Source: Jonesia denitrificans DSM 20603 | GTDB taxonomy: Bacteria; Actinomycetota; Actinomycetes; Actinomycetales; Cellulomonadaceae | Reading direction: 5' to 3' | Assembly: GCF_000024065.1 (NCBI RefSeq) | Contig: NC_013174.1 | Span: 1,302,001 to 1,366,000 of the forward strand | Length of the DNA: 64,000 nucleotides | In this document: one piece after another, positions 34,088 to 36,212 of the stretch | Layout: each line of letters begins with the position of its first letter | Numbering within the stretch: position 1 is the first letter of the stretch | Made by a program: the position numbers and the translations under genes | The notes under the pieces: model-generated | What the model saw: only the letters and a program-made list of their open reading frames with translations | The model's database searches: none | What the model was told of the DNA's origin: nothing

Positions 34088-35016
34088 CCCAACCAATCAG
34101 CCTCTTTGTTGGGCTCACCACGCTCGATATTGCAACACGCATCACCACGTTTCCCACACCCAACGAAAAACTCACGGCCCACCATCAAGATATTGCAGCA
34201 GGAGGCCCAGCAGCCAACGCAGCTGTCACCTGCGCTGCACTTGGTGGTCACGCTATTCTCCTGACCGTGATCGGGACGAGTCCTCAAGCACGCATCGCAG
34301 CGGCCGACCTTGCCGCCCACAACGTCACCGTCATCGACCTTGCCGGACCTGACCACGGTCTGTCTGTATCCAGCATCCTCATCACCGAACACACCGGGGA
34401 ACGAGCCGTTATTTCTACCGATGCTCAACCCCACACGCTGACACCTCAGATGACCAGCCGCCTCACCACGCAGCTAAGCACACTACTGCCACGTGTCCAT
34501 GCGATCCTCATCGACGGACACCACCCCCATCTTGCGCGCCACATCCTCGCCCAACGGCCCACCAATGCTGCCCCCATCATCGTTGATGCCGGACGGTGGA
34601 AACCTGCGTTTGACGATCTCATCCCGCACGCCCAACACATTATTGCTTCAGCAGATTTCCACGACCCACACGGCTGGGTGCCACTCACCCCCGAGAACCG
34701 CACCACACTCACTACCGCACCAACAATCGTGCGTACACACGGTGAACACCCCATCACCGTGTGGCATCCCACCACCACAACCACGATCAGCCCACCAGGC
34801 GTTGTCACCCGTGACACCCTCGGTGCCGGAGATGTTTTCCACGGGGCATATACCCACTTCGTTGCCACCCACCACCACACCCACAACCACCCGCCCACCG
34901 ACCTAGCCGACATCACAGCCGTCACAACCAACGCATCGGTCATTGCGGCACATCGGGTCGCCACAGTTGGCCTGCGAAGTTGGATCACACAACTCGCCGA
35001 CCCCACTCAACTGTGA
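34084..35016 (+). CDS. PfkB-family carbohydrate kinase
   Basis: A ribokinase-fold sugar kinase of 310 residues, substrate not predictable. The N-terminal motif [20 protein letters not shown], the glycine pair region [18 protein letters not shown] and the C-terminal catalytic motif [17 protein letters not shown] (Asp base and anion hole) are clear. The C-terminal half is rich in His, Thr and Pro ([11 protein letters not shown]). It starts with GTG within the uvrB stop, so it is translationally coupled to uvrB. Confidence 0.87.
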
Positions 35017-35086
35017 CGAACAACGCGCCACCGAACGGTGAATCACGATCACACCTGAGCCCACGGTGGCCCATAATAAACAAGAA

Positions 35087-35190
35087 TTGAAGGGGAGTAT
35101 CCCACGAACACTGGTTTCGTCACCACGGCCATCCCGATGATGCGCCCGGAACCAGTTGCCAGGTTCACGCCGCGCGGGAGAGACCTTCGG
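35087..35190 (+). ncRNA. yybP-ykoY manganese riboswitch upstream of terC
   Basis: The conserved 5' part GAAGGGGAGTA (35089-35099) and the 3' part GGGAGAGACCTTC (35176-35188) match the yybP-ykoY core. P1 is GAAGG (35089-35093) with CCTTC (35184-35188). An internal stem ACTGGTT/AACCAGT (about 35110-35116 and 35150-35156) fits a hairpin arm. The aptamer is placed directly before a TerC-family gene, the classic partner of this Mn2+-sensing class. Family assignment is by eye. Confidence 0.85.
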
Positions 35191-35215
35191 TACCAACCAC
35201 CCGTACCGGAGGTAC
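35189..35215 (+). promoter_or_regulatory. Expression platform with alternative hairpins over the terC ribosome site
   Basis: GTACC (35203-35207) can pair with GGTAC (35211-35215), locking the Shine-Dalgarno GGAGG (35208-35212) in a tight hairpin. The same GTACC can instead pair with GGTAC at 35189-35193, directly after riboswitch P1, which frees the Shine-Dalgarno. The two pairings exclude each other. This suggests translational control by manganese. Confidence 0.6.
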
Positions 35216-35219
35216 ACCT

Positions 35220-36212
35220 ATGGATGTCCACGCCTCACTGTGGATCATCACCGTCGGCATCATCTTGACAATGCTCACCGTTGATTTCGTCGGACACGTC
35301 CGCACCCCGCACGCACCGACACTCAAAGAGGCCGGAATCTGGTCAGCGATTTACATCGCGATCGCACTGATATTCGGTGTTGTCATCTGGCAAATATACG
35401 GATCCACGTACGGGACCGAATACTTCGCCGGATACCTCACCGAGAAGTCACTGTCACTCGACAACCTTTTCGTGTTCATCCTCATCATCGCCGCATTTAA
35501 AGTGCCCCGCGAAGACCAACAAAAAGTACTCCTCTTTGGCATTGTTGTTGCGCTGATTTTCCGGACCGTGTTCATCTTCCTCGGCGCAGCACTGATCGAA
35601 AACTTCTCCTGGGTGTTCTACATTTTTGGGGCATTCCTTATCTGGACCGCCATCCACCAAGCAATCCCCGCGAAAGAAGAAGAGGAATACCACGAAAACT
35701 TCCTCATCCGGAAACTGCGCGGGATCCTGCCTATCACGGACTCCTACGTCGGTGACCGCGTGTTTGTCCGCATCGATGGACGCACCATGGTCACCCCCAT
35801 GCTTATCGTCATGGTGGCAATCGGGTCAGCGGACTTACTCTTCGCCGTCGACTCCATTCCAGCGATTTTTGGTCTCACCCAAGAACCGTTCCTCGTCTTC
35901 GCCGCCAACGCATTCTCTCTCCTTGGTCTGCGGCAGCTGTTCTTCCTCGTCGATGGCCTCTTGGAAAAGCTGGTCTACCTCAACTACGGGCTCGCTGTCA
36001 TCCTGGGATTCATTGGGGTGAAACTCGTTCTTCACGCTCTACACGTCAATGAACTTCCCTTCATTAACAACGGCCAACCCGTCCTCGCGGCCCCTGAAGT
36101 AACCATCGCACAATCCATGACCGTGATCGTTGGGACAGTGATCATCACGACGATCGCGTCGGTGTGGAAAACCAACCGAGACCTCAAACGCGGAATCACA
36201 CCACCTGCATAG
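35220..36212 (+). CDS. terC: TerC/Alx-family integral membrane protein, probable Mn2+ exporter
   Basis: A 330-residue membrane protein with about nine helices (e.g. LWIITVGIILTMLTVDFV, AIYIAIALIFGVVIW, VLLFGIVVALIFRTVFIFLG). The family motifs EKSLSLDNLFVFILI and SADLLFAVDSIPAIF carry the conserved acidic residues thought to bind metal. TerC/Alx/MeeY proteins act in manganese efflux and metallation of exported proteins. The upstream yybP-ykoY riboswitch supports a manganese role. The ATG lies 8 bases after GGAGG. A hairpin separates it from convergent yciI. Confidence 0.92.
   Translation: MDVHASLWIITVGIILTMLTVDFVGHVRTPHAPTLKEAGIWSAIYIAIALIFGVVIWQIYGSTYGTEYFAGYLTEKSLSLDNLFVFILIIAAFKVPREDQQKVLLFGIVVALIFRTVFIFLGAALIENFSWVFYIFGAFLIWTAIHQAIPAKEEEEYHENFLIRKLRGILPITDSYVGDRVFVRIDGRTMVTPMLIVMVAIGSADLLFAVDSIPAIFGLTQEPFLVFAANAFSLLGLRQLFFLVDGLLEKLVYLNYGLAVILGFIGVKLVLHALHVNELPFINNGQPVLAAPEVTIAQSMTVIVGTVIITTIASVWKTNRDLKRGITPPA

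Follow-up and report, generated by a model that had tools for sequence, protein, structure and literature searches.

The leader of terC in Jonesia denitrificans is likely to be a Mn2+-responsive riboswitch of the yybP-ykoY type, which would switch on terC translation through a strand shared by the aptamer helix P1 and an anti-Shine-Dalgarno (anti-SD) helix. Computations on the window (the whole 64-kb stretch analysed) and on related leaders gave conserved, covarying aptamer helices and two helices that compete for a common strand, with no terminator-like site in positions 34950–35300. As no terminator follows the leader, control is probably translational, in agreement with the first-pass annotation of this DNA.

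By analogy with the family, the switch would operate as follows. Without Mn2+, P1 would be open and its 3′ strand, CCUUCGGUAC, would bind GUACCGGAGG, with the Shine-Dalgarno sequence (SD) buried in a 10-bp helix (OFF). Mn2+ would dock the L1 and L3 loops and stabilise P1 (GAAGG/CCUUC). The closed P1 would claim the SD-side part of the anti-SD strand, and the ribosome would open the remaining half of the helix (ON). The ON direction, the L1/L3 docking and the action on translation rather than transcription would each follow from membership of the family.

The locus and its class assignment

The terC gene starts with an ATG at 35220, and the leader is preceded by an ORF with a PfkB domain that ends at 35016. 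The gene product is a TerC/Alx family metal homeostasis membrane protein (TIGR03718, PF03741), and its closest named relative found, from J. quinghaiensis, is 92% identical. The features of the locus are as follows.

35048–35077, forward strand: promoter-like site (ATCACA, 18 nt, CATAAT) just 5′ of P1, a match to consensus only
35087–35093, forward strand: P1 5′ strand UUGAAGG (core GAAGG, 35089–35093)
35094–35099, forward strand: L1 motif GGAGUA, opposite GAGA 35180–35183; identical in all 68 aligned leaders, partly by selection, GGAGTA being a selection criterion
35100–35103, forward strand: P1.2 5′ strand UCCC, partner GGGA 35176–35179, with covariation
35110–35116, forward strand: P2 5′ strand ACUGGUU, partner AACCAGU 35150–35156, with covariation
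35118–35128, forward strand: L3 motif CGUCACCACGG; conserved in relatives partly by selection, CGTCA being a selection criterion
35184–35193, forward strand: shared switch strand S, CCUUCGGUAC, comprising the P1 3′ strand (CCUUC) and the anti-SD strand
35203–35212, forward strand: SD strand GUACCGGAGG, the partner of 35184–35193 in the proposed OFF state, containing the SD GGAGG (35208–35212)
35211–35215, forward strand: third 5-mer GGUAC, the triloop partner, whose conservation is not general
35220–36212, forward strand: terC/alx gene, 330 aa (TIGR03718, 374.2 bits vs a cut-off of 246.4; PF03741)

The leader was compared with relatives in an alignment of 68 distinct actinobacterial leaders, all 68 of which have a TerC relative downstream. 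Within 32 nt 5′ of P1, a TANNNT box was present in 58 of the 68 (11.8 expected from shuffling), starting mostly 13–15 nt before P1, so the transcript probably starts near P1. Both Jonesia leaders have CATAAT at this place, where TANNNT is not matched. Covariation supported the aptamer helices P1.2 and P2: 96.3% of cells were paired in P1.2, with double changes at three of four pairs, and 92.6% in P2, with double changes at all seven. Taken jointly, the two helices were 94.0% paired with a covariation score of 0.782, compared with 0.244 after shuffling. The predicted fold of the window leader includes a terminal hairpin, and a variable arm lies before the P1.2 3′ strand. The A of CACGG in L3, which we take to be the metal-contacting (Mn2+-sensing) adenosine, is kept in 66 of 68 rows, including the window. 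In two leaders (L004 and L034, alignment column 42) this otherwise constant A is replaced by C, possibly reflecting an altered ligand or lost sensing.

A covariance model, R1, was built from this alignment. The window leader was its sole match at E ≤ 10, both in the 64-kb window and in the genome, and R1 detected Escherichia coli alx in place (L114:2373–2520, 37.1 bits, E = 4.4e-7); in the E. coli loci searched, mntP was not matched. The current RF00080 model for the manganese riboswitch gave no match at its cut-off within the window; in the leader nothing of this family reached E ≤ 10, and genome-wide no match fell at the leader position. This is a weak test, because the same model misses alx (unlisted at E ≤ 1) and places E. 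coli mntP under its cut-off (41.6 vs 45 bits). When 118 genomes of the class were searched at E ≤ 0.01, R1 matched 78 and RF00080 matched seven, a comparison in which R1 has the advantage of having been made from the same phylum. Three of the seven RF00080 places coincided with R1 places, and RF00080 scored above its cut-off in none of the 118 genomes. These counts indicate that most actinobacterial members escape the current Rfam manganese model. R1 matched 56 of the 80 terC loci fetched, many of which had served to build it, and left 24 without a match; TerC was downstream in all 29 sites fetched from the class survey.

We take an L1 GGGGAGUA and an L3 CGUCANCA-type motif to define the riboswitch class, in part on the basis of the Rfam consensus. 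In the window these lie at 35092–35099 (as GGGGAGTA) and 35118–35125. The leader thus has the class motifs, covarying P1, P1.2 and P2 helices, homology to alx and a metal-handling gene downstream, and very probably belongs to the Mn2+ (yybP-ykoY) riboswitches, as had been annotated at first; Mn2+ as the ligand would be that of the family. A second GGGGAGTA in the genome (L001, E = 0.52 to RF00080) was discarded as a candidate, being inside a 646-aa reverse-strand ORF and without an R1 match. Two snoRNA-like Rfam matches in the leader (E = 0.18 and 6.9) and three weak Rfam matches in other loci were treated as chance.

The same aptamer was also found 5′ of GDT1 (UPF0016) divalent cation antiporter genes, in 10 of 10 loci scanned by Pfam (L145, L147, L149, L150, L151, L154, L156, L161, L163 and L164). 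At these sites the likely start codon lies 31 to 72 nt beyond the end of the model match, suggesting that the expression platform is different there. A relay, in which S would free or block a second, SD-containing hairpin, was considered for the GDT1 leaders and was not supported as a general scheme: when 11 nt of S were held, SD exposure went clearly up in three of ten leaders (L149, L154 and L163), changed little in five and went down in two (L147 and L150).

Two helices on one strand

The first-pass annotation had noted three complementary 5-mers, GGTAC (35189), GTACC (35203) and GGTAC (35211), beside GGAGG (35208–35212), and all were confirmed in the sequence. In its scheme, the 35203/35211 pairing hides GGAGG in a triloop hairpin and the 35189/35203 pairing frees it. 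The latter pairing, however, is prolonged by CCUUC/GGAGG, which makes it a 10-bp helix, CCUUCGGUAC/GUACCGGAGG, closing a 9-nt loop. The SD-proximal half of this helix is formed by CCUUC (35184–35188), which is also the P1 3′ strand and pairs either with GAAGG (35089–35093) or with GGAGG; the pairing thought to release the SD is therefore the distal half of the hairpin that hides it. A small set of mutually exclusive pairings adjoining P1 was thus borne out, while the roles given to the elements were not, the competitor being the P1 3′ strand CCUUC.

Covariation is seen for both helices in the 68 leaders and is clearest in P1 and in the distal part of the anti-SD helix. P1 was 89.3% paired, with 37 double-change cells compared with 11.2 after shuffling and a score of 0.287 compared with 0.160. 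At column pair 6/171 there were 36 GC, 26 AU and 6 UA pairs, with zero misfits in 68 rows; the weak pairs of P1 are its two outer wobbles (30 and 20 misfits of 68). Other measures of P1 were less clear, the count of double-change pairs being reached by 179 of 500 shuffles and that of pair types by 395. The whole anti-SD helix was 88.6% paired, with 49 double-change cells (23.4 shuffled), much of this in the distal half, and a score of 0.258 (0.161 shuffled, at most 0.103 when slid); the count of double-change pairs was reached by 77 of 500 shuffles and that of pair types by 40. As the aligned sequences are related, these counts from shuffling cannot be read as probabilities.

Support for the SD-side half of the anti-SD helix is modest, both in the 68 leaders and in 29 further sites of the class. 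In the 68 leaders its five pairs were 95.6% paired, with 16 double-change cells (7.2 shuffled) and a score of 0.215 (0.156 shuffled, at most 0.143 slid), and showed no excess of double-change pairs or types (483 of 500 shuffles reached both). The SD base follows the shared base in part (CG 34, UG 21, UA 5, other 8), and Arthrobacter rows with A-A account for five of the eight others. In the 29 further sites these five pairs, which were absent from the model used to find and align the sites, were 96.5% paired with a score of 0.125 compared with 0.074, and had double changes at two of five pairs, in 4 cells compared with 0.6 expected. There the whole anti-SD helix was 85.4% paired and scored 0.233 compared with 0.105, with double changes at seven of ten pairs, five of which sat in the aligning model. 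P1 varied little in these sites (86.1% paired, 0.180 compared with 0.143; double-change pairs reached by 405 and types by 457 of 500 shuffles). Pairing of S with its own SD strand also exceeded that with SD strands from other leaders (8.1 vs 7.0 of 10 possible Watson-Crick pairs), and did so in 61 of 68. Counted from the SD side, at least seven contiguous pairs could form in 54 of the 68 leaders and at most three in 14.

The triloop was near control level by the same measures. It was 62.2% paired compared with 59.5% after shuffling (reached by 17 of 500), and its covariation score was 0.153, compared with 0.133 shuffled (55 of 500 shuffles reached it) and, after a slide of two columns, 0.148. 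At least five triloop pairs were possible in 6 of 49 GGAGG leaders, compared with 3.9 expected when the 8 nt after the SD are permuted; these six are the leaders of both Jonesia species and L090, L092, L095 and L098. Covariation in relatives had been put forward as a check on the annotated pairings: P1 and the anti-SD helix pass it, while for the triloop as an SD-hiding element it is not clear and few leaders can form it.

Predicted switching and rival explanations

Taken as single sequences, the window folds are thermodynamically ordinary, with z = −1.12 for 35185–35225 and z = −1.26 for the leader 35080–35225 (for each, 22 of 200 shuffles were at least as stable), and the case therefore rests on the relatives. 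The 10-bp helix has a predicted energy of −14.3 kcal/mol, the 5-bp 35189/35203 part alone −3.7 and the triloop −3.6. In the free whole leader the 10-bp OFF form is 5.8 kcal/mol more stable than P1 combined with the short hairpin, a difference that ligand binding must make up.

When the first five bases of S were held, as they would be by P1, the median predicted cost of opening the SD fell from 9.2–9.6 to 2.3–3.5 kcal/mol over the 68 leaders; with five loop bases held as a control it stayed at 9.6–9.7 kcal/mol. Depending on the segment end, 54 to 59 of the 68 leaders gained 1 kcal/mol or more in ease of opening, and 9 to 14, mainly from Arthrobacter and Microbacteriaceae, gained less. The predicted cost fell from 9.6–9.7 to 2.5–6.1 kcal/mol in the window, 6.1 being the value for one of four segment ends, and from 7.6–9.5 to 4.1–5.9 in J. 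quinghaiensis. With S held, the predicted probability that the SD core is unpaired rose on average from 0.10 to 0.42 over the 68 terC leaders, the rise exceeding 0.3 in only 34; in the window this probability went from 0.00 to 0.14, a value that depends on the segment end. An SD-hiding helix that excludes the ligand-bound helix is thus predicted in the window and in most leaders, and is weak in 9 to 14 of 68, so the scheme is not universal. Five Microbacteriaceae leaders (L046, L048, L077, L078 and L081) have CUUUC with an SD of GAAAG and a longer loop; as folding predicts little switching in most of these five, control may differ there.

The switch first annotated, in which Mn2+ chooses between an SD-hiding triloop and an SD-freeing 35189/35203 pairing, is very improbable given these results. 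All three 5-mers are present and both Jonesia species can form the triloop. With P1 closed the alternatives are near in energy (−46.5 vs −45.4, whole leader), and three of the four segment ends used in the window gave the triloop as the predicted local structure. Against this, its covariation and its frequency among GGAGG leaders are near those of the controls, and the fold that the free leader favours by 5.8 kcal/mol has GGAGG hidden in the 10-bp helix. What the energies suggest is that in Jonesia the triloop may be able to form once P1 is closed. Coaxial stacking is not included in the energy model used; the 35189/35203 hairpin might promote release by stacking in this way on P1.

Two other explanations keep the aptamer and change what it does. 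It could act on transcription, through intrinsic or Rho termination, instead of or besides translation, which we consider rather improbable. Lactococcus lactis and Xanthomonas oryzae relatives are described as acting on terminators through P1.1 (PMC11087558, PMC6754395), and Rho has been linked with the riboswitch at E. coli mntP (PMC11647493). Intrinsic termination is at odds with the lack of a terminator-like site in 34950–35300, and the competing helix holds the SD, with UACACCU and the AUG coming after it. That the fold senses another metal or pH seems more improbable still than either of the foregoing. The A of CACGG is missing from two of the 68 leaders, and PMC9603457 describes tighter Mn2+ binding of the mntP element at alkaline pH and cites an alkaline response of alx; the window, however, has this A, the downstream genes are TerC and, at weaker sites, GDT1, and Vibrio mneA and terC stand behind a Mn-sensing riboswitch according to PMC13274385. 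Mn2+-dependent release of the SD through the shared P1/anti-SD strand is the reading we prefer.

Comparison with known riboswitches

The Jonesia leader combines known parts and is a variation on a known mechanism. According to PMC11647493 the mntP ribosome-binding site is closed without Mn2+ and freed with it, and PMC9294342 states such release by Mn2+ for the class. The translational E. coli systems alx and mntP share the aptamer motifs of the Jonesia leader; alx is matched by R1, and mntP differs in having no R1 match. In L. lactis and X. oryzae, the switch helix P1.1 is stabilised by Mn2+ at the expense of a competing hairpin further downstream (PMC6754395, PMC11087558). Exclusion of a downstream hairpin by a Mn2+-stabilised helix is likewise what we propose for Jonesia, but the competitor is a terminator in those species and would be the SD strand here. 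An actinobacterial terC leader, that of Corynebacterium glutamicum cg2157, was assigned to RF00080 at 49.13 bits with the 2013 Rfam and has an observed 5′ UTR (PMC3890552).

No description of a shared-strand platform in actinobacteria was found in a literature search that covered few subscription papers, and no claim of novelty is made from this. It is possible, though we regard it as doubtful, that the terC leaders of actinobacteria make up a separate and widespread platform, with one strand serving both P1 and the anti-SD helix, and that Jonesia has a three-state switch. The P1 5′ strand would then be roughly a copy of the gene's own SD, the three strands would co-evolve, and the Jonesia triloop would be a third pairing that lowers the ON level.

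The leader is a compact case of competing riboswitch helices with one common strand. As both helices can be traced by comparison, the switching logic could be tested with a few paired changes in a reporter.

In the Jonesia leader the direct pairing partner of the P1 3′ strand is the gene's own SD, whereas in alx a similar hairpin lies about 65 nt before the start codon. In the alx leader (L114:2493–2514), GACCUUGC holds the P1 3′ side and an 8-nt partner, GCGAGGUC, is immediately 3′ of it, a layout that resembles the terC arrangement.
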